Source of the DNA: Planctomycetota bacterium
GTDB lineage: Bacteria; Planctomycetota; UBA11346
Reading direction: 5' to 3'
DNA length: 64,000 nt
Assembly: GCA_014193115.1 (NCBI GenBank)
Contig: BJHQ01000005.1
Location: 264,598 to 328,597 of the forward strand
Positions 2,209-18,418 of the stretch are shown here, in pieces. The position numbers and the translations under genes were made by a program. The stretch's first letter is position 1, and the number at the start of each line of letters is the position of its first letter. The notes beneath the pieces were generated by a model, which was not told the DNA's origin, made no database searches, and saw nothing but the letters and a program-made list of their open reading frames with translations.

Positions 2209-5200
2209 TCAGAAATCATTGGCTCCACCGGTGGGCAAGGATGGCGGCGCTGGCTTGTCCGGTGTGGGAACCGCCTTGGGAGTCGATGGTTTTTCATTCG
2301 ACACGGCGAGGATGGACGATGCCTGGTTGATCACGGCATCGTCGTCCCAGCATCCGGCGAACAGCGTCTGTTCGAAGGTCAAATCCATGGAACTCATCGC
2401 TGGGCCGAGCCGGCGCCAAACCGCCAAGGCCCGTTGCGCTGCGGGCGCGGCGGCTGGATCGCTGACAGCAGCGGCGAAATGCAGGCCCCGCTCATCGACG
2501 AGGCAGGTCTGTTGGCCGAGCCTGACCAGGTATTCCAAAGCCGGACCGAGCCGCATCGTGACCACTTTGAGCGTGATCGGTACGACCGGCGGGTTGACCT
2601 GCGGCTCGATGGAGACCGGCATGCCGCAGATCTTGCCGATCTGGGCCGCCGCATCCTGAAAGGGCATGTCTTGGATATCGAAGGTGATCCGTTGAGCGAG
2701 CGCCGGCGCATTGCCGATCACGACGCAGGCTCCGGTCGCCCGGATCGCAGTCTTGACTGCGGCAAGGCGTTCATCGCCTGGTCCGAGCTGGGCGTGCTCG
2801 GCCAGCCAGCCCCAGGCGGCGTTGCGCAGCGCCGCGGATTCGGCGCCAGCCCAGCCGGTGACCAGGGACACCAAGCCCGGCGGGACCGACGCGAAAAAAC
2901 GCAGGCCGCCGCCAAAGGTCGGGTGGCGCAGGCCCGCACGCAGCCACATCGGATCGATCTTGCCCAGGGGTTGCTTGGCCAACCAGCCGATCATGGCCGG
3001 GGCGGTATCGGGATACCAGACCAGGCTGAGCCGGGCGGCGATCTCGGTCTTAGCCAGGTCATCCAAACCGCTCGCCAGCAGCCGCCGCAGGTCCGGATCG
3101 CCGAGATCGGCGAAACGCAGATTCGCCGCCAGGGCCACCGCGGCGCTCCGCGATTCCGGCCGGCGGTCGCGGGCCAGACCCTGGGCGCGCAACACCGGAC
3201 TGGTCGGAGCGATTGGCGCGTCGCCACGCTGTGCATACGTCAGCCAGAATCCAGCATCCTTGGCGAAGATCCGGCTGCGCAGTCCGGAATCTGGACCGAG
3301 GCGCGCCCCGAGCCATCGCGCCAGGACTTCGCTGAGCGCTGCCGGATCGGCGAAGATCCGGTCGCGGGCCGGGGCATCGCCCTGCACCGCAAGCATGGCA
3401 TCGACGACGGCCGCCCGGCGGGCATTGGCCACCGGATCGACCTCGGACTTGATCTTCTGGGCGAGGTCGGCCGCGACGCTGCGGAGCTGGACGAGGGTGG
3501 CCTCGGGGTCGCCGCGACCGATGCCGCCGGTGATCGCCTCGTTGATCCACCACCGATCAGGACGGACATCGCCGTTGAGCAGGTGCTCGGTCAGGATCGG
3601 GTGCGGCGCGCTGATCGCGGCATCCTGCCAACCGTTCACCACCGGTACTTTCACCAGGCGATCCAAGGCATCACCGCCGGCCAGGGCGCAGGCCAGGTAG
3701 TGTCGGCAGGCCACGATCCATTCGCCGGTCGGTTTCAGCTCGGCAATCAGCTTGCGGTCGGCGTCGGTGGCGACCCGGGCCAGGGTCAGGGCCTGGGCAG
3801 TGAGCCGGGCATGTCGCGATTCCGGGGTCATGACGGTTCGCAATTCCCCAGCGATCGATGCGGGATCGATGCGGGATATCGCCCACAGTGCTGCCCCAGC
3901 CAGACGTTCATGGACGAATCCGCTCCACGGATGTGCCGGATCGAGGGCCGGTCGGCAGGCCGTTGGCGCTGTGGCGGCCAGGCGCAGCCAGGGCAGGCTG
4001 GATCGGCTGCGGCAGGCTCCGGCGAGCAGGGCCAGGGTCGGGGTCGCGACCAGCCGGGTCGGCCGATCGTCGGCGAGGCCCACGGCCAGCCAGCTCGGAT
4101 CGTTGCCGCCGGCGACTGCCAATTGGGCCAGTGGAACGCTGGCGATCAGACGTGATGTATTGTCGGGTTCGGCCCGGATCGACACCAGGTCGACGCCCAC
4201 CGCGCCGAGCAGCGAGCGGTGGACATAGCCCAGGGTCGGCTTGGCCTGATCCCACAACCGGGCGATGGCGGCATCGACTGCCGGATCGTCGGCCAGCCAA
4301 TCCAGCGGCCTGGCCTCGGGCAACCAATCCTCAAACGTCGCGTCACGGCACAGGCCGGCAAGGAATGCCGACCACCAAGAGCGCGGCAAATCCTTGGCAG
4401 CTGCCGCGATCAGCAGGTCACGACGCAGATCGACATCGTCGAAGGCCGACCTGGCAATCGGATCGCCGCGCTCGATCGCAGCCAGAGCCGCGGCGCGTTC
4501 ATCGCCGGTAGCTGCCCGGTCGACCAGCACCAATCCTGAGCGTTCCCGCCAGCGCAGTCCGGTCTGGGTCGCCAGCTGATCGAGGGCGACCCGCAAAGGC
4601 GCACGACCGACCATCAGATCGGCGGCGAAGGCATCGCCATCCACCGCGACGGCGAATCGTTGGTTCGCCAAGGGGCGGAACTGCTCGGCGAGCAAGGCCA
4701 CGATGGCACCGACCGGCCAGCGGATGACGCTGATCGCGACTGGCTGATCGAGCACGCTGGGTACTGGCACCGGCTCCGGCGCTGGCGGGTCGGCCGGGAG
4801 CACCTGGGGGCGAGGCACCGCTTCCGAGCTGGTCTGGATCGGCGCGGGCGGCACCGCAGTCCACGCGGCCAGGACGAACATGGCAGCGCCAAGGGCCAGC
4901 CCGGCAGCCAGAATGGATGCAGGCGCGGTGGTCAGTCCAAACCAGGCCAGGCCGGTCGCTGCGGCCGAGTGGCTCGCCGGCGCGGCGACCAAAGCGACCT
5001 TCCCCAGCTGGGCCAGCAGGCCAGGTGGAGGAACGACCAGGGCTGCGCCCAAGGCGGCACCGAGCACCGCTGAACGCGGCTCATCGACGTTGAGCCGCCG
5101 GCGGAGCTCGGTCAGTCCGCGGTCGATCCTCCGGTGGATGGTCGGCTGGCTGCACCCGAGGCGAAGGGCGATCTGCTCCTGGGTTTGCCCCTCCAGGAAA

Positions 5201-5595
5201 CGAAGGACCACGACTTCGCGATGGTCGTCCGGCAGTTCGGCAAGCGCCTGGTCGAGGCGGTCGAGCAGTTCGCGCTGTTCGCGATCGGTTTCCGCCGCTG
5301 GAACGTCCGTTGCCTGTTCCAGCGTGACCCGCACATCGGCCCGTCTGCGCAGCGCCGCACGCAGGGCCGTGGTGTGCAGCCAGCCGGCCAGATTGCCACG
5401 GACCTGACGCGCATGTCTGGCCAGGGCCAGGAAGCAGTCCTGGGCCGCATCTTCGGCGGCGTGGGTATCGCGCAGCACCCGCTGACAGGTGCCATAGACC
5501 AGACCGGCATGCCTGACCACCAGGTCGGCAAAAGCCTCAGCATCGCGGCTTTCCGCATAGCGACCGAGCAGGACGGCATCTGGCGGCATGGACAT
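2209..5595 (-). CDS. ECF-type RNA polymerase sigma factor with very long membrane-anchored C-terminal extension containing STN/secretin-like segments
   Basis: N-terminus from M at 5595: DAEAFADLVVRHAGLVYGTCQRVLRDTHAAEDAAQDCFLALARHARQVRGNLAGWLHTTALRAALRRRAD (sigma-70 region 2) and ELPDDHREVVVLRFLEGQTQEQIALRLGCSQPTIHRRIDRGLTELRRRL (region 4). Then a hydrophobic helix (ASILAAGLALGAAMFVLAAW) and ~850 further aa. Confidence 0.85.
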   Translation of the reverse strand: MSMPPDAVLLGRYAESRDAEAFADLVVRHAGLVYGTCQRVLRDTHAAEDAAQDCFLALARHARQVRGNLAGWLHTTALRAALRRRADVRVTLEQATDVPAAETDREQRELLDRLDQALAELPDDHREVVVLRFLEGQTQEQIALRLGCSQPTIHRRIDRGLTELRRRLNVDEPRSAVLGAALGAALVVPPPGLLAQLGKVALVAAPASHSAAATGLAWFGLTTAPASILAAGLALGAAMFVLAAWTAVPPAPIQTSSEAVPRPQVLPADPPAPEPVPVPSVLDQPVAISVIRWPVGAIVALLAEQFRPLANQRFAVAVDGDAFAADLMVGRAPLRVALDQLATQTGLRWRERSGLVLVDRAATGDERAAALAAIERGDPIARSAFDDVDLRRDLLIAAAAKDLPRSWWSAFLAGLCRDATFEDWLPEARPLDWLADDPAVDAAIARLWDQAKPTLGYVHRSLLGAVGVDLVSIRAEPDNTSRLIASVPLAQLAVAGGNDPSWLAVGLADDRPTRLVATPTLALLAGACRSRSSLPWLRLAATAPTACRPALDPAHPWSGFVHERLAGAALWAISRIDPASIAGELRTVMTPESRHARLTAQALTLARVATDADRKLIAELKPTGEWIVACRHYLACALAGGDALDRLVKVPVVNGWQDAAISAPHPILTEHLLNGDVRPDRWWINEAITGGIGRGDPEATLVQLRSVAADLAQKIKSEVDPVANARRAAVVDAMLAVQGDAPARDRIFADPAALSEVLARWLGARLGPDSGLRSRIFAKDAGFWLTYAQRGDAPIAPTSPVLRAQGLARDRRPESRSAAVALAANLRFADLGDPDLRRLLASGLDDLAKTEIAARLSLVWYPDTAPAMIGWLAKQPLGKIDPMWLRAGLRHPTFGGGLRFFASVPPGLVSLVTGWAGAESAALRNAAWGWLAEHAQLGPGDERLAAVKTAIRATGACVVIGNAPALAQRITFDIQDMPFQDAAAQIGKICGMPVSIEPQVNPPVVPITLKVVTMRLGPALEYLVRLGQQTCLVDERGLHFAAAVSDPAAAPAAQRALAVWRRLGPAMSSMDLTFEQTLFAGCWDDDAVINQASSILAVSNEKPSTPKAVPTPDKPAPPSLPTGGANDF

Positions 5596-5761: not shown

Positions 5762-6664
5762 TCATGCCCCAGGCGGAGCCGGTTCACCTGATGTGCCAGC
5801 CCCACGCGCCAGGTGGGATCGGCGCTGGCGCAACCAGCGTTTGGGCGGCTGGCCGTGATGCCTGGCAAAGGCGTGGACGAAGCCGGCCATGGTCCGGTAG
5901 CCGCAACGCTGGGCGATGTCGTGCAGATTCAGGGCTGGGTCGGTCTCCAGCAGGTAGGCGGCGTGATCGAGTCGCACGTGGCGGTGGTAAACGGTGGGCG
6001 CCATGCCGTAAGCGCTGCGGAATTGCCGGCGGAGGGTGCGCGGTGGAACACCGACGGTTTGGGCGAGGTGGTTGGCCATTGCCGGGGCCCTCAGATCACG
6101 GCGCATGGACATGGCCGCAGCCCGAGCCGGGCTCGGTTCGCGCGCCAACGGTCCGCCACGTCGCATGGCCACCAACGAGGACAGATAGGCGGTCAGCAGG
6201 CGGTCGAACAAGGGACGCATGGCCAGCCGGCGCTGGAGCACGCCCAGACGGTCCAACGACGGATCGCTGAGATCGCAGGTGGCAGCACAGGCATCACGCA
6301 GGCTGTCGGAATCCGGTAACGGCACGACGATCGGAAGGGCCAATCGGCCCCACGGTGAAGGTCCCGCAACCGGCGCGAAGCCCGCCAGGAAAGCAAGAAA
6401 GTCTGGGATGCCTTCCGAGCGCATCCGGTACATCGGCTGCGGTGGCAGGACCAAGGCGCTGCCGGCCGGCACCACCGCGTCGGTCTCGACCGTGCCCATC
6501 TTCAGGACACCACGGAACACCAGGATGATGGTGAAATGATCCCTGAGTCCGTTGGTGTTGGCGTCCTTCCCCCGGTGCCAGCAGGTCCAACGCGGAACCA
6601 CGGTGGTCTGGGACCAGGCGTCGAGCAGGGCTTCGCCGTCCGTTTGGGACAATATCGTGGCCAT
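5762..6664 (-). CDS. AraC-family transcriptional regulator
   Basis: Start ATG at 6664 (MATILSQTDGEALLDAWSQ). C-terminal double HTH: MANHLAQTVGVPPRTLRRQFRSAYGMAPTVYHRHVRLDHAAYLLETDPALNLHDIAQRCGYRTMAGFVHAFARHHGQPPKRW. Confidence 0.85.
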   Translation of the reverse strand: MATILSQTDGEALLDAWSQTTVVPRWTCWHRGKDANTNGLRDHFTIILVFRGVLKMGTVETDAVVPAGSALVLPPQPMYRMRSEGIPDFLAFLAGFAPVAGPSPWGRLALPIVVPLPDSDSLRDACAATCDLSDPSLDRLGVLQRRLAMRPLFDRLLTAYLSSLVAMRRGGPLAREPSPARAAAMSMRRDLRAPAMANHLAQTVGVPPRTLRRQFRSAYGMAPTVYHRHVRLDHAAYLLETDPALNLHDIAQRCGYRTMAGFVHAFARHHGQPPKRWLRQRRSHLARGAGTSGEPAPPGA

Positions 6665-6814
6665 TGCAGACAACCCTGGACCGGTGCAGAGGAGTACAAG
6701 CACCATGCCTCGTCTCCACTGGTCGCATGCCGGCAGGCGAGCCGCACCCGAGGACCTCGGAAACGCCGTCGTTGCCAACGGCCGTCTCTCGCGCCAACAC
6801 AAGGCCAAAAAAAC

Positions 6815-7102
6815 ATGACCGATCTGACCGCATCCCTTCGCGTCGTGCTGCTGACGATCGTGCTCGCAGTTTTTCTGACGACCGGTGCGGCAGAACCGCT
6901 CCCGGCTCCCGCCCAACCCATCCGCTTCGATATCCAACTCGGCCCCGCCCAGTTCCCGGCCGGCAAGCCCAAGGCGGGTGCACCTCAGCCCGCCGTCCTC
7001 GGAGGTTACATCGAAGTGTGGTCGGCTCTGTGGGCACGAGTCGTTCAGCATGACTTCCGCGCCCATCTGCATCTAAAACTCCATGCCGGAGGGATACTAT
7101 GA
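6815..7102 (+). pseudogene. 5' fragment of a type A paralog (signal peptide plus start of the N-terminal domain); still open, and overlaps the next start by ATGA
   Basis: MTDLTASLRVVLLTIVLAVFLTTGAAEPLPAPAQPIRFDIQLGPAQFPAGKPKAGAPQPAVLGGYIE matches IRFDIQLGPAQFPAGKPKAGAFQPAVLGGYIEGG of the gene at 10526. About 100 nt (6917-7015) nearly identical to ~10619-10717, then unrelated sequence. Confidence 0.8.
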
Positions 7103-10100
7103 AAACCACCCTTGCCCTGATCCTTACAACCGGGATTTTGACATGTTTATCCCCGCTTGCCGCCGCCGACCTGCCCCAGGTCGATCGGTCCAAACCCTTC
7201 CACATCGACCTGTGGATGGGAGTGCCGAGCAAAGATGCCCTGGCCAAAATCGGCATCGATGGTTCGAAGAATAAACTTCCTTCCGATCCTTCCAGCGGCT
7301 GGACCTTCCCCTGGTTCATCGGCGCCGTGCAGGTGGGGACCGAGATCCGGCAACCATATGCACTGCCCTACGAATCCTGGTACACCCCGCACAACCAGTT
7401 GCAGGAAAATGACGGGAACTGTCCCTACGCCTTCTTCAACTTCCGCCAGGCCAAGGAGGACCTGCAGGCTTTCTCGTGCACGATCACGGATGCAAAGATC
7501 AGCGGCAACGCACGGGTCGATCTGGGCGGAACCCAAGCCCTGTCCGTGGCCTGGGAAGGGACCATCAGCGGCAATTCGATCCGCGGCAAGGCGACCATGT
7601 CCCTGGCGGAAGACCGGGTTCTGGAACGACCGCTGGTCGGCGTCCTGCGCCCCACCGAACCGCTCGATCTGCGCAACGCCGTGTATCAGATCAGGTTCAA
7701 GGGCCAGGTCCTGGTCTTCGAGGTGCGCGATGGCAAAGCCGGGCAGGGTTCCGGTCGCCCGTGGGATCCCATTGGACGTCCCGTCGCCTTTGGCCGGCTG
7801 CTGCCGGTCGACGCCTCCCAACTGACGGTCACCGCCCTGCCCCCCGAGGTGCGTGGCGTTTCGGTGGCCCTCGCCGGGATCGTGCAGGTGGATGGAAAAC
7901 CGCTGGAGATTCCCACGACCGTGGTCCTGGCCAACGGTCTGGCCGTCGGACAGGCCACTCGGGGCAAGATGCCTGGGGTCGAGGTCCAGGCCTATCCCCT
8001 GACCGATCCGGTTGCCGCCCGCTGGCGCGACTGGATGGGCGCGATCCATGCCGAGGGCAAACCGGTGGATCCGGCCCTGGTTCAGCAGGCCCAGGACGAG
8101 GCTGCCACCATTCCCGCCCTGCCGGCACCCAGTCCCGCCACGACCTTCACCCATCAGCACCTGGAAGGCCGCTTTATTTACGCACCCTGGCTGCCCCTGT
8201 CGGCAACCGCTGGCGCCGTCAAATATCGGATTGAACTGACCCCATCGCATCCGCCACACTCCAAGCCCCTGGTTCTGGAGGTCGCCGCTGCGCAAAGTGT
8301 CGATCTGCGGCCGGTCTGGGCAGGCATGGCCCCTGGCAACTACGCCCTGGCGATCACCGCCCTGGATGCTGGCGGCGCAGCGATCGGCACGGCGCAGCGA
8401 TCCAAACTGATCAAGAAGGTGCCCTTCGGTTCCCATCCCTTGACGGTCATTCCTGATCCCATCGCCATGGACCTTGCCCTGCGCTTTCCGCGCTACCTGG
8501 CCGATCACCAGTATGCGTTCCATACCCTTTTTCGGGAAATCGATGCCGCCGGCGAGAATGCCGTCATCAGCAAAACCATCGCCTCCATCTGCCATTCGCC
8601 CTGGCATCTTCTGACTCGCTGGGGGACGCCCGCCGAGCAGGTCCGGGGCCGGGTGCTGGCGGACTATTTCACCAAGGTGCTCCAATGGGATGCCGACCAG
8701 CCCCTGGGCATCCAGCAGGGCTACAAGGCCATGTACTTCGGCGCGGCCCAGGACTGGGGCCGGGCCGTGCTGGATGATTTTGCGGCCACCAAGGCCGAGG
8801 ACCGCTTGGCCCTGGTGCGGACGGCCTTCGACCGCCTGTACCGCCTGCAGCAACCCAGCGGTTCGTGGGCACTGATGTGGGACCGGACTCCATGGCCCAA
8901 GTGGTCGGGCGCCTTCACCATGTGGAATACCGCCTGGCTTGACCACAATGGCGCCGCATACGCCCTGCCCTTCGGGCGCTACCGCAATCTGAGCGGCGAC
9001 CACCGCTATCTGGATGCCGAACTCAAGGCCGTGCGCTGGGTGCTGCGCAACTCTCTGCGCACCGGTTATTGGGAGACGCAGGCGCAGCAGGGCGACTCCA
9101 ACTACAACCGGCCCACGGCGCACACCATGGCCTTGGATTTCCTGCTCTACCTGCTGGAGCAGGCTCCGGCCGATCAGGCCGATTCCGTGCTGGCCGAGGA
9201 CATCATGCGCTACCTGGAAGACCAGTTCATCACCTGGGACCGCGTCCCGGCGGTCAGCGGTGGCACCATGACCGACAACGGCGTCCTGCGCCTGGCCATC
9301 GTCTCGCTGCTGCTGCACCAGCGCACCGGCAAGCCCATGCACCTGGCCAAGGCCGAAGCGCTGTTCAACGCCTACATGATCAACCGCGACCCGGTCAGCG
9401 GCCTGACCGACATGCGCTGGAACCGCTATATGTCGGAAGTTGACGATCCGGTGTACGCGCTGCGTTATGTTGAACTGCGCCGCCAGGTACTGGCTGAACC
9501 AACTTCGTCTGCCGTTCTTGGCACCACGCCGCTGACCCTGACCCTGGACCGCGCCGCCGCCGGCAGCGAACGGGTCCGTCTGCATCTGGACAGCCGTGAC
9601 GGGAAGGTCGTACAGGCCATCGCCACCACCCCCACCTGGCAGACCCTCGACATCCCCTTCACCACCGTTTCCCGGCGCCACCAGCAGGACGGTGAAACCC
9701 TGTTCCATGCCGTCGATGCCAGTGGCCTCAAGGTCGGCCCCCACGGCATCGAAGGCTCGGTGAGCGTGGCCCTGGCCGCACCCGGCGGCACGCCGGTGCC
9801 CACCGTGTTCAACCTCACCGCCGCACCTGGACAGCGGACGCTGGTCGGCACCTGGTCGCAGGGCACCGCCACCGGTCGCGTCGCCGGCGAAGGTCTGCGC
9901 CCAAGCGTGGCCAAGCCCAAGCACCTGCACCTCCAGATCGCCCAGGCCGTGGCCGGCGGCGAATCCTGGCAGAACTGGGCGCTGCTGCGCACCAATTTCC
10001 AGGACGGTACCGCAACCGGTGCAGTCATCTGTAACACCAACGCCGGCTGGCGCGCGACCACCACCGCCTGCGACCTGCGCCTGGGGACGGATGGAACCAT

Positions 10101-10485
10101 CAGCGGCAGTCTGGCCACCGACGTGCGCTGGATCGGCTTCATGGACAACAACGCCAGCGATGAGGCCAAGACCAAGGAATGGAAGACCGGCACCCTGGAT
10201 TGGCTGGCCTATTGGAAACTCGGCGGCCCCGGCACCGGACGCGGCAACGAATACGAACCCGGCTTCCGGCCCCTGCCTTGGCCCGAGCACACCAGGATCC
10301 CCGGCAAGGACGACAAGTCCACCGGCCAGCTCGAATATAGCACCACGTCAAAGCCAGTGACCCCAGGAACCTACCGGATCGTCTTCGCCAGCCGACGCAT
10401 CGGCGATCTGGTCGCCGGCACGGCCACGGTGGAAACACCGGATGGCAAAAAGCAGGTCAGCCAGTGTTTCGGCAGTGTCGAATGA
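7099..10485 (+). CDS. Type A large secreted protein of uncharacterised family, copy A1 (divergent)
   Basis: RBS ggaggg before ATG at 7099; signal peptide MKTTLALILTTGILTCLSPLAAA. Helical region with RLYRLQQPSGSW and LAEDIMRYLEDQFITWD; C-terminal tail GTATVETPDGKKQVSQCFGSVE. Confidence 0.8.
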   Translation: MKTTLALILTTGILTCLSPLAAADLPQVDRSKPFHIDLWMGVPSKDALAKIGIDGSKNKLPSDPSSGWTFPWFIGAVQVGTEIRQPYALPYESWYTPHNQLQENDGNCPYAFFNFRQAKEDLQAFSCTITDAKISGNARVDLGGTQALSVAWEGTISGNSIRGKATMSLAEDRVLERPLVGVLRPTEPLDLRNAVYQIRFKGQVLVFEVRDGKAGQGSGRPWDPIGRPVAFGRLLPVDASQLTVTALPPEVRGVSVALAGIVQVDGKPLEIPTTVVLANGLAVGQATRGKMPGVEVQAYPLTDPVAARWRDWMGAIHAEGKPVDPALVQQAQDEAATIPALPAPSPATTFTHQHLEGRFIYAPWLPLSATAGAVKYRIELTPSHPPHSKPLVLEVAAAQSVDLRPVWAGMAPGNYALAITALDAGGAAIGTAQRSKLIKKVPFGSHPLTVIPDPIAMDLALRFPRYLADHQYAFHTLFREIDAAGENAVISKTIASICHSPWHLLTRWGTPAEQVRGRVLADYFTKVLQWDADQPLGIQQGYKAMYFGAAQDWGRAVLDDFAATKAEDRLALVRTAFDRLYRLQQPSGSWALMWDRTPWPKWSGAFTMWNTAWLDHNGAAYALPFGRYRNLSGDHRYLDAELKAVRWVLRNSLRTGYWETQAQQGDSNYNRPTAHTMALDFLLYLLEQAPADQADSVLAEDIMRYLEDQFITWDRVPAVSGGTMTDNGVLRLAIVSLLLHQRTGKPMHLAKAEALFNAYMINRDPVSGLTDMRWNRYMSEVDDPVYALRYVELRRQVLAEPTSSAVLGTTPLTLTLDRAAAGSERVRLHLDSRDGKVVQAIATTPTWQTLDIPFTTVSRRHQQDGETLFHAVDASGLKVGPHGIEGSVSVALAAPGGTPVPTVFNLTAAPGQRTLVGTWSQGTATGRVAGEGLRPSVAKPKHLHLQIAQAVAGGESWQNWALLRTNFQDGTATGAVICNTNAGWRATTTACDLRLGTDGTISGSLATDVRWIGFMDNNASDEAKTKEWKTGTLDWLAYWKLGGPGTGRGNEYEPGFRPLPWPEHTRIPGKDDKSTGQLEYSTTSKPVTPGTYRIVFASRRIGDLVAGTATVETPDGKKQVSQCFGSVE

Positions 10486-10525
10486 AACTTCCTGCAACCG
10501 ATGATCTACGGAGAAACAACAAACC

Positions 10526-13500
10526 ATGACCAAGTCCATCCACCTGGTCCTGCTGGCGGGTTTGCTCGTGGGAATTCATTCACTCAGTGCAGCGGAAACC
10601 CCGCTGGATACCTCGAAACCCATCCGCTTCGACATCCAACTCGGCCCCGCCCAGTTCCCGGCCGGAAAACCCAAGGCGGGTGCCTTTCAGCCCGCCGTCC
10701 TCGGAGGTTACATCGAAGGCGGCAAGGTCACCGGGGCCTATGCGCCAAACATGACCGCAGTCTATGCGGCCGGGCAATCGCCTGATGACAACTATTGGGA
10801 TCTCTGCCCGTACGGGCCGCGTGCACCGATCGAAGGCGAGGCCGCCTGGAGCAGCCGCATCCGCGAGGTTTCAGCGTCCATCGGCCCGGATGGTTTCCAT
10901 GGCACCTGGAGCGTCAGTTTCGGCAAGGGCGATCCGGCCAAGAGCCCGGCCATCACCCCTGAATTGAAGATCCGCATCAAGGCGCATGCGGGTGTGGTCG
11001 GCTATGTGGGCACGTATGAAGGCACGGTGGGCGATGCGGCGGTGCAGGGTCCCTGCGTGGTCCGCGCCCGCAATGTCGCCGCCGGTATGATTGATCCCGC
11101 CAATGCCTTTTACCAGATCATCGGTGGCGGCTTCCGGGTCTTCGTCGAGGTCCGCGCCGGCAAGCCGGTGCAGGCCTGGGCGGTCGCCAATGGCGTGGGC
11201 AATCAGGGTTGGGTCTACCGGCGTCCGGACGCACCGGCGGCTGCCACCCGATTGTCCCCGGCCGATGCCACGGTGCTCACCATCGCCATTGCTGATGAAG
11301 GTCTGGCCGGAACGGCCGCCACCTTGCATGGCACCATCACCATCGCCCCGTCCACCACCCTCAAACTGAATGAAGTGGTCGTCAGTGGCGCCGGAAAAAT
11401 GCGGGTTTCCGGTAAGGATTCCACGGTCGAGGCGGTGCGCAGTTATCCGCTCAACGATCCGCAGATGGCTCGCTGTCTGGATCTGCTCAAGGAGACGCAT
11501 CGTGGCACCAAACCAGTCCCCGAGGCCCTGCTGGCCCAGGTCCGGCAGGAATCCGTGCGCGACGATGTCCAACCGGCGCCCAGCGAGGCGATGCGTTATA
11601 CCCACCGCCTTTGGAAATCGAGCAGTTTCATCTATGCGCCCTGGTTCGACTTCGAAACCGTGCCTGGCGCGGTGAAGTATCGCTTCGCCATCCACACCTC
11701 GAACGTCCACAACCAATTAGTTGAACCGCCGGTCATCAGTTTCGAGGCCGCTTCACCACGCGCCTCGTTGGCTCCGATCTGGGACAAAATGCCGGTCGCG
11801 GACGGTCCACGGGCGTTTCTGTCGCTCAAGGTGACCGGCCTGGATGCCGCCGGCAAGCCGGTTGGTGAACCGCAGTCCCGTGGCATCCAACGCCGGTCAC
11901 CCTTCAACCCCGAAATGATCGTCACCCCCGACGCAAAAGTGCTGATGGAACTGGCCCTGCGCCAACCACGCTTCCTGTTTGATCAGTATCATTCCCATCT
12001 GTATCTGACGGAAGCCGTGCGTGCGGCGGGCAACGGCGTTCAACCATTGGGCTACGGTCCCAGCCACTGGCATAACACGCAGCAATGGCTGGCCATGGAG
12101 GAGACCGACCCCGGGCGTCGCATCCAGCAGTTGCGCCTGCTGGATACCTTCAACAAGCAGCGCCTGCTCGACGTCAATGGCGCCTTCAAGACCCCGTACC
12201 ATTACAACGCCGTCGTCAGTGGCGTCGTGCAGGAGACCGGTCGCAACTATCTCAATGCCCTCGATATCCAGTTCGATGCCGAGGTGGTCGACCGGTTGCG
12301 GTTGTGGCTCCGGTATTTCGGTCGCTTGCAGCAACCCAGCGGCTCGTGGTGCATCTCGGAGCGGGCCGCGCTTGGCTGCTCTGGCGGGTATAGCCTGTGG
12401 GGCAGCCGGCACCTGGAGAATACCAGTGCGCCGTGGCTGCCTTTTATGGCGCGGCTGCGCCGGTTCGATGACCAAATCGAAACCCGCTCCCTCGCCCGCG
12501 CCATCGAGGAGCGAGCGTCATCGTGGGTTCGCAACAATACCCTGCGCACCGGTTTCGGCGAACAGATGCATCAGCAGACCGATCCCACCGACATGGCGCA
12601 TTCGGCCCAGAACCAGATCGAATACGTGCTCTACGTCCTCCGGCACGCACCGCCATCGCAACGCGATTTGGTCATGGCCAGCGACCTGATGCGCCGCATC
12701 GAAGATCTCTTCATCACCTGGGATGCGCTGCCGTTGACCGGGGGCGGTGCTTTCACCTTCGGACCATCGCTGCCTGCCGTCGAGGCGCTGTGCCTGCTGG
12801 AACTCTACACCCTGGATGGCGACCCAGCGCTGCTCGCCAAGAGTGAGGCCTTGGCCGCATCGTACCTGCAACGCGCTGATCCCTGGAACGGAAGCGGGGC
12901 CGATCCGATGACCGGCGGTTTCAGTTTATCCTACAACCGATTCCTGCAAGAAACCGATGACCCGGAATGGATCGTGCGCTGGGTGCAACTCCATCGCGCT
13001 CTCACCAAGGCTCCGCCTGCCGCCATCCCGGAACGTCATCTCACCCTCACCTGCGATCGGCTCATCGACGGCGTCGATCGCGTGGTTCTCGACCTGGCCA
13101 TCGCCGACGGCAAGATCACCCAGGCCCTGGCCCGCACTCCGACCTGGGATGGACCAGGAGCGAACTTTCATCAGCCCGGACGCCTGCACACCCGCCCCGG
13201 AAAGAAGCTGTTCCACACCGTGGATGCCACTGGTCTCGCCATCACGCCGGACGGCATCAGCGGGCAAGTCATGCTGACTTTGCACGATCCGCAGGGTGGG
13301 GAGGCGCGCCGCCTGACCGTCGAAGTTACGGCGAAAAGACAGCATGTCCGCGGCTGGCTGGGAACCTGGAAGCAGGGTCCATCAGGAGGTCGGGTCGAAG
13401 GCCGTACCGTTGCCGACGCGCCAGCCACCGGGGCTCAGCAGATCTTCGTTCAGGTGCATGAAGCCCTGGCTGGTGGCGAGGCATGGCAGACCTGGTCCCT

Positions 13501-13996
13501 GGCTGGCGCGGTACTGCCTGCGGTCGGCACGGCGACCGCCGCCACTTTCATCAATCCCAATGCCGGCTGGACCGCCCAGTCGACCGTGAGCGCGTGCTCC
13601 CTGAATGACGCGGATTTCTCCATGACCATGGATGCCGAGGTGACCTGGCAGGGCGTCGCGGAACTGGAGTACGTCAAGGGTGAATTGCCGAAGGCAACCG
13701 CCAACTATAAAACCACACCGGAATCCGCGCAGGCGCTGCTGGCCAATTGGGAGATTCCCGGCAAGGGATTTACCCTCGAATTCCCACTGCAACCAACCAA
13801 AGGGGATTGGGATCCGGCCAAGCCGGTGGCGTACACCACCACCTGGAAACCAGTCACTGCAGGCAAATACCGACTGAAATGTGATGGCAAACGCCTGGGC
13901 CATATTCTGTATGGCACGGCGATCGTCACCGGACCAGACGGCAAGGAAACTGCGCGGCAGTTTCTGGGTGATGTCGAATCAATCGTAAAACCGTGA
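10526..13996 (+). CDS. Type A large secreted protein of uncharacterised family, copy A2
   Basis: Signal peptide MTKSIHLVLLAGLLVGIHSLSAA; shared motifs VLGGYIEGGKVTGAYAP, GRLQQPSGSW, SDLMRRIEDLFITWDALP, ALARTPTWDGPG, INPNAGWTAQS, GPDGKETARQFLGDVES. Confidence 0.85.
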   Translation: MTKSIHLVLLAGLLVGIHSLSAAETPLDTSKPIRFDIQLGPAQFPAGKPKAGAFQPAVLGGYIEGGKVTGAYAPNMTAVYAAGQSPDDNYWDLCPYGPRAPIEGEAAWSSRIREVSASIGPDGFHGTWSVSFGKGDPAKSPAITPELKIRIKAHAGVVGYVGTYEGTVGDAAVQGPCVVRARNVAAGMIDPANAFYQIIGGGFRVFVEVRAGKPVQAWAVANGVGNQGWVYRRPDAPAAATRLSPADATVLTIAIADEGLAGTAATLHGTITIAPSTTLKLNEVVVSGAGKMRVSGKDSTVEAVRSYPLNDPQMARCLDLLKETHRGTKPVPEALLAQVRQESVRDDVQPAPSEAMRYTHRLWKSSSFIYAPWFDFETVPGAVKYRFAIHTSNVHNQLVEPPVISFEAASPRASLAPIWDKMPVADGPRAFLSLKVTGLDAAGKPVGEPQSRGIQRRSPFNPEMIVTPDAKVLMELALRQPRFLFDQYHSHLYLTEAVRAAGNGVQPLGYGPSHWHNTQQWLAMEETDPGRRIQQLRLLDTFNKQRLLDVNGAFKTPYHYNAVVSGVVQETGRNYLNALDIQFDAEVVDRLRLWLRYFGRLQQPSGSWCISERAALGCSGGYSLWGSRHLENTSAPWLPFMARLRRFDDQIETRSLARAIEERASSWVRNNTLRTGFGEQMHQQTDPTDMAHSAQNQIEYVLYVLRHAPPSQRDLVMASDLMRRIEDLFITWDALPLTGGGAFTFGPSLPAVEALCLLELYTLDGDPALLAKSEALAASYLQRADPWNGSGADPMTGGFSLSYNRFLQETDDPEWIVRWVQLHRALTKAPPAAIPERHLTLTCDRLIDGVDRVVLDLAIADGKITQALARTPTWDGPGANFHQPGRLHTRPGKKLFHTVDATGLAITPDGISGQVMLTLHDPQGGEARRLTVEVTAKRQHVRGWLGTWKQGPSGGRVEGRTVADAPATGAQQIFVQVHEALAGGEAWQTWSLAGAVLPAVGTATAATFINPNAGWTAQSTVSACSLNDADFSMTMDAEVTWQGVAELEYVKGELPKATANYKTTPESAQALLANWEIPGKGFTLEFPLQPTKGDWDPAKPVAYTTTWKPVTAGKYRLKCDGKRLGHILYGTAIVTGPDGKETARQFLGDVESIVKP

Positions 13997-14018
13997 CCAA
14001 ATCGGACGGGGAGGAGCC

Positions 14019-14822
14019 ATGACCAAATTCACCCATTTCAATCTTGGTCGGGAGGCGCCTGATCAGCAACGTCCGCTGTGGGAACGCGGGGTCGGGGTGG
14101 ATGTACTCGGACGGCACGATGATCGGATCACGTATCGGTTGCTTGTACTGCCCATGTTGTTCCTCATTGAACCAGCCGTTGCGGCGCGGGTAGGTGCGTA
14201 TGCGGAAAATGGTGGCACGGTGTTGGCGACCTGGTTGACCGGCATCGTGGACGAGAACAACCTGTGCCATCCTGGTTGGCCAGGTGGCGGCCCGCGCGAA
14301 TTATTTGGGATCTGGGCGGAGGAAATCGATGTGCTCCACGAAAGCGACCGGCAGGAAATTCACTTCAAGCCCGATACTTCGTTGAACCTGACCGGCCGGC
14401 ATCGCGTCCGAGCTTACGCCGATCTTCAGCATCTTGAAGGCGCAACGGCAATAGCAGAATATGGAAGCGATTTCTATGCCGGAAGACCTGCCTTGACCTG
14501 TCATCGCGTCGGTCGGGGCGAAGCCTGGTATCTCGCCGCCGAACTCGACCACGTCGGACTCCATGCCGTGGTTGGCGCATTGGCCAAACGAACCGGGATC
14601 CGCCAACTCCTGCCCACGCCGCATCCCGGTCTCACGGTTCAATCGCGTACCGACGGCAAGACCGAATGGCTCTTCGTCCTGAACTTCTCGGGTCAAACCC
14701 ATTCCGTGGACCCGGGACCAGTGACCGATCAGGAAACCGATGCCACCATACATGAACCTGTGCTGGTCACAGGATGGGGATCCAAAGTGGTATTTCGGAA
14801 AGCGAGGAATGCACTGTCATGA
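14019..14822 (+). pseudogene. GH42 beta-galactosidase C-terminal fragment (trimerisation and C-terminal beta domains only; catalytic TIM barrel absent)
   Basis: YRLLVLPMLFLIEPAVAARVGAYAENGGTVLATWLTGIVDENNLCHPGWPGGGPRELFGIWAEEIDVL is typical of the GH42 trimerisation domain; LTVQSRTDGKTEWLFVLNFSGQT is typical of the C-terminal region. No catalytic-domain sequence upstream. Confidence 0.75.
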
Positions 14823-17800
14823 ATGCACAACCAGGGATCAAGAAAGAGAGCGTGGACATGCGCCGCGAACTCATCCTGCTGGCGTATCTCGCCAGCGCAT
14901 CCTTCACCCTGATGGCGGCAGATGCCCTCCCGCTAGGAAAACTTCCGCCGCCGAAACTGGATTATTCCAAACCGATACAGTTTGATGTGCAATTTTCCCC
15001 TGTGGTATTTCCTCAAGATACCCCGAAAGAGGTTCGCGGTAATCCATTGCCGGCCATCATTGGCGGCTACCTGGAGGGTGGGAAGGTGACCGGCGCCTAT
15101 GCGCCGGATATCAGCCACATCTATCATGCGGGTGCAAGTCCGGATCAGTTCGAGTGGGATCTGTGTCCGTATGGGCCCCGTCATGGTACAGGATCGCGTG
15201 ATGCTCAACGTGAAAAATTCACCAGTTCCACGCTGCGGATGACTGATGCTCAGGTTGAGGGAACCTGGCGTTTCAACTACATTTCCACCAAGGATTCCGG
15301 AAAAACAACCTCGCCAGTCTATGAAATCAGCATCCAGGCCACCGCGACCAGTTGCGGGTATGCCGGAACCTATACCGGAAAAATAGCGGATGTGCCGGTC
15401 AGTGGCGATTGCGTGCTGGCCGCTCATAACATCCCGGCGGGGGTGATCGATCCAGCCAATGCCATTTACCAGATTCTTGGCGGGAACTACGCTGTCTTGG
15501 TCGAAGTCCAAGCGGGAAAAGCAGTCCAGGCCTGGGCGGTTGCGGGGGTGGTTAGTGCTGAACGAACCTGGAGGTATCGTTACCCCGGTGATGCGGTGGC
15601 CGCCACGTTCCTGTTTCCTGCCGATGCATCCGGCATGAGCCTGAAAATCACCGATGAGGGTCTGGATGGCAAGGCGGTCACGCTGGGTGGTCAGATTACC
15701 ATCACGCCGGAACCCAAAACCGCTTCAAGGATGTTTGGACCAACGACCCTCGATCTCAGCGGAACGGTCATCAGCGGCGCAGGAAAAATACGAGGGAATG
15801 GCAAGGAATCCAAGGTGGAACAGGCCAGAAGTTATCCGCTCACCGATCCGTTGATGGCCCGCAGTCTGGCGCTGCTCAAGGAAACTCATCGCGGTAGCAA
15901 ACCAACCGCTCCAGAACTGCTGGCGCAGGCCGATCAGGAATCGCTGCGCACGGATGTCCAACCGGGTCCGAGCGAACAGACCCGTTACATGCAGCGCCTT
16001 TGGAATGGTGGCACGAGTGGGGAATATAACTACCATCGTTCCTACATTTATGCACCCTGGCTCGATCTTGAGGTTGTACCCAGCGCCGTCCGTTATCGGT
16101 TTGACTTGATCGACGCTTCGCATGAAAATACCGGAATCCGGCCCTTGATCGATTTCTTCGAAGCGTCCTCTCCACGGGTCTCGCTTCTTCCGATCTGGGC
16201 CAAGGTGCCCAAGAACCTTGGTCGGAACCCCATCAGTTCACTTCGTGTCACTGCTTTCGATGCTGATGGTAAAGCGCTGGGAAAACCGCAGGAATGCGGT
16301 ATCACTCGTAGGCCGGCTTTTTCCCAGGATCAGATCGTGACCCCTGATCCCAAGGTGCTGATGGAACTAGCGATGCGCCAACCATACCATCTGACCACGC
16401 GATATTATTCACACCTGTATCTGACCGAGGCGGTACTGGCAGCCAAGAACGGGGTGAAGCCCCTGAGTTATGAATCTCCGCATCACCATTTGCCACAGAC
16501 CCTGATGGTCGAGCATGAGGATAATCCGGTCCAACGGGATCAGTACATGCGGTTGTTGAATACCTATGTGGATCGACGAATGAAGGAACAGAATGAACCC
16601 TACTTCAAGCTGCCCTACCACTACAACGTCGGCCTGAATGGCGTGGTCCAGGAAACCGGGCGAAATTTCCTGAACGTCCTGGATCTTCAGCCGAATACCG
16701 AATTATTGGATCGTATGCGTCTGTGGACTCGCTTTTTTTCGCGCATGCAGCAACCCAGTGGTTCATGGACGATTTCCTATCGAGGTATGTTGGGGTGCAC
16801 TGGCGGCTATTCCCTTGGTGGCAGTTTTTTCCTGGATCAACCGAGTACACCCTGGTTGCCATTTCTGGCCCGAATGCGCCAGCATGACAATGATCCGACC
16901 TTTCGCGCCATGGAACGCGCCATCGAGGAAAAGGCGGCGTCCTGGGTTTTGAACAATACGCTTCGTACTGGTTTTTCGGAAAACGTGCAGCAGCAGACCC
17001 TCAGCAACGACAATGGCCACACGGTGCCCAACCAGATTGAGTATGTGTTATATGTGCTGCGCCACGCACCGCCCGTCCAGCGCGATGTCGTCATGGCCAC
17101 CGATCTCATGCGTCGGATCGAGGATCTCTTCATTTCCTGGGAGGCGCACGCGAAAACGAGAGGAGGGAATTTCACCTTCGAGCGTTCGCTCTATCCGATC
17201 GAAGCCCTTTGCTTTCTGGAATTGTATGCGCTGACCGGTGATCCGTTGATGCGGGCCAAGAGTGAAGCCCTGGTCAGCACCTACTTGCAAGACAGCGATC
17301 CCTGGAATGGCAGCAATGGTCTTTCCGGATTGACGAGTAAAATGAATTATGACCGATTCATCCAAGAAACTGACGATCCCGACTGGATCGTGCGTTGGGT
17401 GCATCGTGACCGTGAACTTCGCGCCACCCCGCCCTCTGCCGCACCCGAGCAACACCTGACGGTAACCCTGGATCAACTGATCGATGGCATCGACCGGGTT
17501 GTGCTGGATTTGGCCCTGGCCGATGGCAGGGTGACCCAGGCCCTGGCGCGCACCCCAACCTGGGATGGACCTGGAATCAATTTCTATCAACCCGGCACTG
17601 TCCACACCCGTCCTGGCAAGGCTTTCTTCCACAGCGTGGATGCATCCGGCCTGAAGCTCAGCGCCGAAGGACTCAGTGGTACGGTGAAACTCACCCTAAA
17701 ACCGCCCCAAAGCGATACCTTGATCTCCATGATCGCTGAAATCAGCGCCAAACGCCACGCTCTACGCGGCTGGCGTGGAACCTGGAAACAAGATAATAAT

Positions 17801-18418
17801 CAGGGACGGGTCGAAGGCGTCACCCTGGTCGATGCGGTTGTCAAAGGCCCGCAACAGATTTTTGTCAAAGTCAACGACGCCCTGAGCGGCGGCGAAGCCT
17901 GGCAAAACTGGACTCTGGCCGGCGCGGTCCTCCCAAGCACAGGAAGTGCAACCGGCGCGACCCTCATCAACCCCAATGCCGGTTGGACCGCTCAAGCCAC
18001 GGGTCTCAAGGATTGCATCCTGAACGGCGACACCTTTACCATGTCCATGGATGGCGAAGTCACCTGGCACGGTGTCGCCGAGCGGATCCCAAAGGACGAA
18101 ACACAGACAACCTACACCTACAAGACCACCCCAGAATCCAATCAGGCGCTCTTGGCCCATTGGGAACTTTCCATCAACAAAAATAACAGCTCCCTGTACT
18201 GCCCATTCCTCAAACCAGGGACCGGAGATTTATCCGCAGACGGAAAGCTGATCTACCAGACCGATTCCAAACCCGTCACCCCCGGCAAATACCGATTGAA
18301 ACTAGATGGCAAACGCCTGGGCAATATTCTATTTGGCATGGCCACCATCACCGGCCCGGACGGCAGGGAATCCGTCCGACAGTTTCTGGGCGATGTGGAA
18401 AGCATCGGTAAACCATGA
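14819..18418 (+). CDS. Type A large secreted protein of uncharacterised family, copy A3
   Basis: Start at 14819 (ATGA overlap with preceding ORF) or 14858 (MRRELILLAYLASASFTLMAAD signal peptide). Highly similar to A4 over full length (GKLPPPKLDYSKPIQFDVQF, FFSRMQQPSGSW, SENVQQQTLSNDNGHT, RQFLGDVESIGKP). Confidence 0.85.
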   Translation: MNAQPGIKKESVDMRRELILLAYLASASFTLMAADALPLGKLPPPKLDYSKPIQFDVQFSPVVFPQDTPKEVRGNPLPAIIGGYLEGGKVTGAYAPDISHIYHAGASPDQFEWDLCPYGPRHGTGSRDAQREKFTSSTLRMTDAQVEGTWRFNYISTKDSGKTTSPVYEISIQATATSCGYAGTYTGKIADVPVSGDCVLAAHNIPAGVIDPANAIYQILGGNYAVLVEVQAGKAVQAWAVAGVVSAERTWRYRYPGDAVAATFLFPADASGMSLKITDEGLDGKAVTLGGQITITPEPKTASRMFGPTTLDLSGTVISGAGKIRGNGKESKVEQARSYPLTDPLMARSLALLKETHRGSKPTAPELLAQADQESLRTDVQPGPSEQTRYMQRLWNGGTSGEYNYHRSYIYAPWLDLEVVPSAVRYRFDLIDASHENTGIRPLIDFFEASSPRVSLLPIWAKVPKNLGRNPISSLRVTAFDADGKALGKPQECGITRRPAFSQDQIVTPDPKVLMELAMRQPYHLTTRYYSHLYLTEAVLAAKNGVKPLSYESPHHHLPQTLMVEHEDNPVQRDQYMRLLNTYVDRRMKEQNEPYFKLPYHYNVGLNGVVQETGRNFLNVLDLQPNTELLDRMRLWTRFFSRMQQPSGSWTISYRGMLGCTGGYSLGGSFFLDQPSTPWLPFLARMRQHDNDPTFRAMERAIEEKAASWVLNNTLRTGFSENVQQQTLSNDNGHTVPNQIEYVLYVLRHAPPVQRDVVMATDLMRRIEDLFISWEAHAKTRGGNFTFERSLYPIEALCFLELYALTGDPLMRAKSEALVSTYLQDSDPWNGSNGLSGLTSKMNYDRFIQETDDPDWIVRWVHRDRELRATPPSAAPEQHLTVTLDQLIDGIDRVVLDLALADGRVTQALARTPTWDGPGINFYQPGTVHTRPGKAFFHSVDASGLKLSAEGLSGTVKLTLKPPQSDTLISMIAEISAKRHALRGWRGTWKQDNNQGRVEGVTLVDAVVKGPQQIFVKVNDALSGGEAWQNWTLAGAVLPSTGSATGATLINPNAGWTAQATGLKDCILNGDTFTMSMDGEVTWHGVAERIPKDETQTTYTYKTTPESNQALLAHWELSINKNNSSLYCPFLKPGTGDLSADGKLIYQTDSKPVTPGKYRLKLDGKRLGNILFGMATITGPDGRESVRQFLGDVESIGKP

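Follow-up and report, generated by a model that had tools for sequence, protein, structure and literature searches.

Can an ECF sigma factor, a membrane anchor and a large sensory part beyond the membrane be joined in one polypeptide? The question is raised by a gene lying in the 64,000-nucleotide stretch of planctomycete DNA analysed here (the window). The initial annotation, made from the sequence, saw a sigma factor whose regions 2 and 4 are normal, followed by a single hydrophobic helix, an STN-like stretch, a long helical Ala/Leu/Arg-rich region and a second STN-like segment near the C-terminal end, and proposed that sensor, anti-sigma and sigma factor are merged in this chain.

Gene and domain architecture

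The gene is an open reading frame of 1128 codons on the minus strand, with an ATG at 5595 and a TGA stop at 2209-2211; its coordinates had been given correctly. GAAGGAG, a ribosome-binding-like motif, lies just before the ATG, and the GC content by codon position is coding-like throughout all 1128 codons. The fusion of a sigma factor, a transmembrane (TM) helix and STN domains at 2209-5595 was confirmed, with the following features.

2209..5595, minus strand: complete gene, its 1128-aa product an ECF sigma factor continued by a TM helix and a large C-terminal extension (ORF, Pfam, position-specific GC)
5338..5523, minus strand: sigma-70 region 2, aa 25-86 (Pfam PF04542, E 1e-10)
5101..5262, minus strand: sigma-70 region 4, aa 112-165 (Pfam PF04545, E 5e-14; PF08281, E 3e-13)
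4981..5094, minus strand: conserved juxtamembrane segment, aa 168-205 (alignment of 52 TM-fusion sigma factors)
4864..4920, minus strand: single predicted TM helix, aa about 226-244 (Kyte-Doolittle 2.18)
4744..4857, minus strand: Pro-rich linker, aa about 247-284 (sequence)
4516..4743, minus strand: STN-fold domain 1 (STN1), aa about 285-360 (AlphaFold pLDDT 80.9, structural matches Z 8.9-9.6, 2000 shuffles)
2713..4506, minus strand: orphan region, predicted helical, Ala/Leu/Arg-rich, aa about 364-961 (homologue searches, low-confidence model)
2467..2703, minus strand: STN domain 2 (STN2), secretin-N type, aa about 965-1043 (blastp down to E 7e-11, genome searches E 7e-7)
2212..2298, minus strand: C-terminal tail, rich in Pro and with NDF as its last residues, aa 1100-1128 (excess of terminal Phe in this class)

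The sigma part has regions 2 and 4 and lacks region 3, as in ECF sigma factors, and matched the NCBIfam model sigma70-ECF (8.6e-26). Beyond them, no domain above threshold was found in the 1128-aa protein using Pfam and NCBIfam. Cys37 is conserved in 63% of the 52 aligned fusions and Cys148 is present, conserved cysteines in sigma2 and sigma4 being a trait of ECF57. The best named match of the sigma part in a plasmid collection, a weak one, was an Isosphaeraceae sigma factor that also carries a TM helix and an extension. Between region 4 and the TM helix the alignment showed only the short conserved juxtamembrane segment of some 40 residues, in which Pro190 is kept in 90% of the 52 fusions. 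The postulated anti-sigma part of the chain was not found, since neither Pfam nor NCBIfam gave a match to an anti-sigma or FecR family and nothing except this segment precedes the helix.

As anticipated, a single strong TM candidate follows the sigma regions: residues 226-244, the strongest hydrophobic stretch, were predicted by hydropathy only (Kyte-Doolittle 2.18), and a comparable helix lies at a similar position in most related long-extension sigma fusions. Of two weaker hydrophobic stretches, residues 176-194 fall within the juxtamembrane segment, and residues 285-303 were assigned from the AlphaFold model to the first strand and helix of STN1.

STN domains are small and also occur in secretion channels and in proteins of siderophore signalling. 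STN1 is weak by sequence (Pfam STN E 0.17), and its score of 9.8 bits against an STN profile exceeded the maximum of 2000 shuffles, 8.3 bits, by a small margin. Its AlphaFold model had a pLDDT of 80.9 and the order E-H-E-E-H-E-E of the STN fold (beta-alpha-beta-beta-alpha-beta-beta), on an input alignment (A2) of 22 rows with 21 STN relatives, presumed homologues that can steer such a model. VIA structure comparison of the model gave Z 9.6 and 9.3 with the secretin N0 domains of EscC and PilQ, 9.5 with the anti-sigma factor BDI_1681 (4m0n), 8.9 with the PupR-PupB complex (chain B) and 8.8 with FecA, and Foldseek gave modest E-values, the best being 1.5e-3. The STN-like stretch beyond the helix, of which only the second half had been quoted, is borne out by this fold. 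Phage baseplate and VgrG proteins reached Z values similar to those of STN structures, which we took as a common small-domain arrangement.

The long Ala/Leu/Arg-rich region is indeed present between STN1 and STN2; it is helical throughout in a full-length single-sequence AlphaFold model of low confidence (pLDDT 40), which we used only as a hint of helices. No relative of residues 364-961 was found in 98 genomes of the phylum, the same genus included. HEAT repeats were considered for this region and set aside, there being no Pfam match to it.

When the whole extension was searched in the 98 genomes, STN2 was the only part matched. By sequence comparison, this second segment near the C-terminal end is clearly homologous to secretin N-domains, as the blastp E-values of 7e-11 to 4e-6 against N-domain segments from fetched loci indicate. 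Whole-genome searches gave E-values of about 1e-6, down to 7e-7; the pairwise blastp values are the ones to trust, because the profile built from the STN2 hits is partly circular. Two of the matching proteins in the same genome are true secretins (PF00263). The Pfam STN model and a sequence search of the PDB gave no match to STN2. Two secretin genes of the genome lie about 5 kb apart (contig C4:36000-55000, locus L082), each with TPR matches and STN2-like N-domains.

Related fusions and their C-terminal ends

Matches were obtained in 96 of the 98 related genomes searched, nearly all to the sigma part and many in frames of 400-1300 aa. Of the 30 distinct sigma genes recovered from the genome under study, 7 encode a TM helix after region 4, followed by more than 120 aa of extension. 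Such sigma-TM-extension proteins are a large, little described family. Among the extensions of related fusions, CarboxypepD_reg was found in 9 of 37, and HEAT, ankyrin, beta-helix and Ig-like domains also occurred; reading of the sequences added types resembling sulfatase-modifying factors and LamG. A scan of public genomes yielded one long-extension relative, of CarboxypepD type, in a Hydrogenedentes MAG, the rest matching the sigma part only.

The combination of sigma part, TM helix and STN recurs elsewhere in the family, in at least four genomes (G012, G011, G009 and G017). One STN copy was counted at locus L144, two at L120 and at L140, one together with ankyrin at L092, and three at L148, where the sigma part is cut by the contig edge; at L156 two copies are supported by the profile and two more were seen by eye. 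No obvious common neighbourhood emerged on comparing the sigma-TM-STN genes. The STN repeats of L156 and L140 (G009 contigs C32 and C30, from an AT-richer relative) stand in tandem, in two to four copies.

Two paralogues in the same genome carry other extensions. One (L066/L078, C11:66638-67444) joins its sigma part and TM helix to an extension of HEAT type that ends ENF; an STN-like segment seen by eye before this extension scored 1.2 bits against the STN profile and is not claimed. The other (L069/L077, C8:172559-173482) has an extension that reads like a sulfatase-modifying-factor (FGE) domain and ends VAF.

The last residue drew attention as well. A terminal Phe was present in 18 of 57 complete TM fusions (19 of 58 with L148), compared with 8 of 278 control genes of the same genome, four of which resemble outer-membrane barrels and one of which is the gene at 2209-5595 itself, 3 of 148 genes from other loci and 1 of 24 short sigma factors. 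Fisher's test, made after the pattern had been noticed and on counts that are not fully independent because the fusions are related in their sigma part, gave p of about 1e-9 to 1e-10 against the 278- and 148-gene controls and 0.009 against the short sigma factors. Phe-ended tails were found at positions 2212-2220 of the window and in L066, L069, L084, L086, L092, L093, L096, L120, L144 and L148. They occur on extensions otherwise unrelated to each other, and the tail that leads up to the Phe is often acidic or rich in Pro (EDF, DDF, NDF, ENF, VDF, RDF; often [D/E/N]-x-F or xDF). This excess in sigma-TM fusions, 19/58 versus about 3% of control genes, is a new observation, and offers a cheap, testable handle on a proteolytic step.

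Known systems and the mode of control

The order of sigma factor, one TM segment and periplasmic part with STN, on predicted topology, is that of IutY. This Pseudomonas putida protein unites its sigma domain with a single TM segment and, in the periplasm, an anti-sigma region; its outer part is trimmed by Prc, for which the extreme, native C-terminus is dispensable according to mutants, and the sigma domain is then released by RseP (PMC5411451). IutY, a sigma/anti-sigma hybrid of group ECF243 (PMC5411451, PMC8999054), and the 1128-aa protein share a cytosolic ECF sigma factor, a single TM segment and a periplasmic regulatory part. IutY is 374 aa long and has as its partner the TonB receptor IutA, the product of an adjacent gene, whereas the protein described here has an outer part of about 880 aa with two STN domains, a secretin-like STN2 and a large orphan helical insert. 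Unlike for IutY, no STN-bearing TonB receptor was detected: the genome has five TonB plug domains, and the five frames gave no STN match at E 0.01, with a weak STN model and a genome 94% complete. The known type of partner may therefore be missing. Since IutY already joins a sigma factor to a periplasmic regulatory region, there is a precedent for sensor and sigma factor within a single polypeptide; of the merger first proposed, the sigma factor, the TM helix and two STN domains do lie in one chain, and an anti-sigma domain is not supported.

Other systems resemble parts of the protein. The anti-sigma factors PupR and FoxR of CSS systems, whose C-terminal STN meets the STN of a TonB receptor (PMC7186176, PMC11637429), share with it, as do FecR-type proteins, a single TM helix and a periplasmic STN at or near the C-terminus, but each of them carries an anti-sigma domain in the cytosol and is a polypeptide distinct from its sigma factor; in the 1128-aa protein no such domain was seen, and the sigma factor is part of the chain. 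The CSS juxtamembrane all-beta subdomain was not recognised here, and similarity of the extension to the CSS anti-sigma factors was seen only in the STN fold. ECF57 and other planctomycete ECFs (PMC8999054, PMC8567305) also combine an ECF sigma factor with a large C-terminal extension, which in ECF57 is WD40 and here is STN plus helical. ECF52 (SCO4117), ECF48 and ECF53 of Actinobacteria have sigma, TM helices and extracytoplasmic domains, with proposed proteolytic activation (PMC8999054), but they contain a zinc-finger anti-sigma domain, and SCO4117 a carbohydrate-binding domain, neither of which was seen here. Secretins (GspD/PilQ) have an N-domain homologous to STN2; the 1128-aa protein has no secretin channel domain and its N-domain is attached to a sigma factor. 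Taken together, the protein is a sigma factor of IutY-like design, probably tethered to the membrane, whose STN domains are of secretin type.

Regulated proteolytic release of the sigma domain is, we infer, the best mechanism for this protein; the sequence architecture, the STN folds, the recurrence and the presence of candidate protease genes are shown. Among the proteases of the genome are an RseP-type M50 protease with PDZ, one S41 tail-type protease with PDZ and HtrA-type proteases, and together with the IutY precedent these make proteolytic release the most economical model. We give a probability of about 0.55 to a tethered ECF sigma factor whose periplasmic STN part senses and whose sigma domain is freed by proteolysis. 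The sigma domain (aa 1-170) would be cytoplasmic, with one helix across the inner membrane and about 880 aa in the periplasm, where the membrane-near and C-terminal STN domains probably sense or bind an envelope component by STN-type contacts. At rest the sigma factor would be held at the membrane, without productive binding to RNA polymerase, and the conserved juxtamembrane segment may help in this inhibition. On a signal, the outer part would be trimmed by a protease of the periplasm, whose PDZ domain possibly recognises the Phe-ended tail; the sigma domain would then be freed by an intramembrane protease of RseP type. The idea of a tail signal cannot simply be carried over from IutY, whose Prc does not need the extreme C-terminus, and the Phe tail may have another role, Prc being independent of the native C-terminus. 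The exterior or envelope-type domains found at the position of the extension in relatives (CarboxypepD_reg, beta-helix, Ig-like) were counted in favour of tethering; counted against it were that no anti-sigma domain was found to explain inhibition, that no STN-bearing TonB receptor was detected, and that sister proteins have HEAT and ankyrin extensions. HEAT and ankyrin domains are often cytoplasmic.

A tethered sigma factor might also be controlled by a conformational change or a partner, with STN contacts to a secretin or receptor moving it on and off RNA polymerase and no cleavage taking place. STN domains serve for contacts between proteins (PMC11637429), STN2 comes nearest to the N-domains of secretins from this genome and its family, and protein interaction is the mode proposed for ECF57 with WD40 extensions (PMC8999054). 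Against this, the sigma factor would need access to promoters while staying at the membrane, and the characterised sigma-TM-periplasmic fusion, IutY, acts by proteolysis; we regard control without cleavage as possible rather than likely. It is improbable that the helix is no anchor and that the extension acts in the cytoplasm as a scaffold or inhibitor, as in the C-terminally extended ECF41 and ECF42. The TM call from hydropathy, the HEAT and ankyrin repeats of sister proteins and a helical region that could be an alpha-solenoid would fit such an arrangement, but the helix has a hydropathy of 2.2 and, in most relatives with a long extension, a similarly placed counterpart, exterior-type domains occur in relatives, and STN domains are familiar from proteins of the periplasm. 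A fusion that is degenerate or drifting and regulates nothing would agree with the lack of an orthologue of the extension, even in a same-genus genome (81% complete), and is very improbable given a coding signal intact over 1128 codons, two STN folds kept and a recurrent architecture.

A broader proposal, which we make tentatively and consider rather doubtful as a whole, is a class of sensors that link the envelope to transcription in one piece: exchangeable modules in the periplasm (STN, CarboxypepD_reg, HEAT, ankyrin, others) would sit on a common sigma-TM base, the Phe-ended tail would be a signal for a PDZ protease, and STN members would read the state of a secretin, a partner other than a TonB receptor. 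If this is true, the usual pair of sigma and anti-sigma factor would be replaced in bacteria of this group by single-chain sensors with freely swapped outer modules, a simple reason why some ECF sigma genes have no anti-sigma gene beside them. With the STN members, the design of IutY would reach past TonB receptors, and the input they suggest is contacts of a secretin-like kind.

Gene neighbourhood

The gene is flanked on the minus strand by a gene for an AraC-type regulator (5762-7072) and by a gene whose product may be a polysaccharide lyase (238-2151; Alginate_lyase in Pfam, E 0.0016, short of the cut-off of that model). Large proteins are encoded one after another on the plus strand, and some of them match GH127 weakly or GH10 and PQQ clearly. 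Given the lyase-like, GH127-like and GH10 neighbours, a glycan-related role is possible, and a glycan signal for the sigma-TM-STN protein is suggested by these genes only. No Pfam match above threshold was obtained for three proteins encoded within 7099-18418 on the plus strand; they are large (1128-1214 aa), similar-looking and arranged in tandem (7099-10485, 10526-13996 and 14774-18418), near the GH127-like and GH10 genes.
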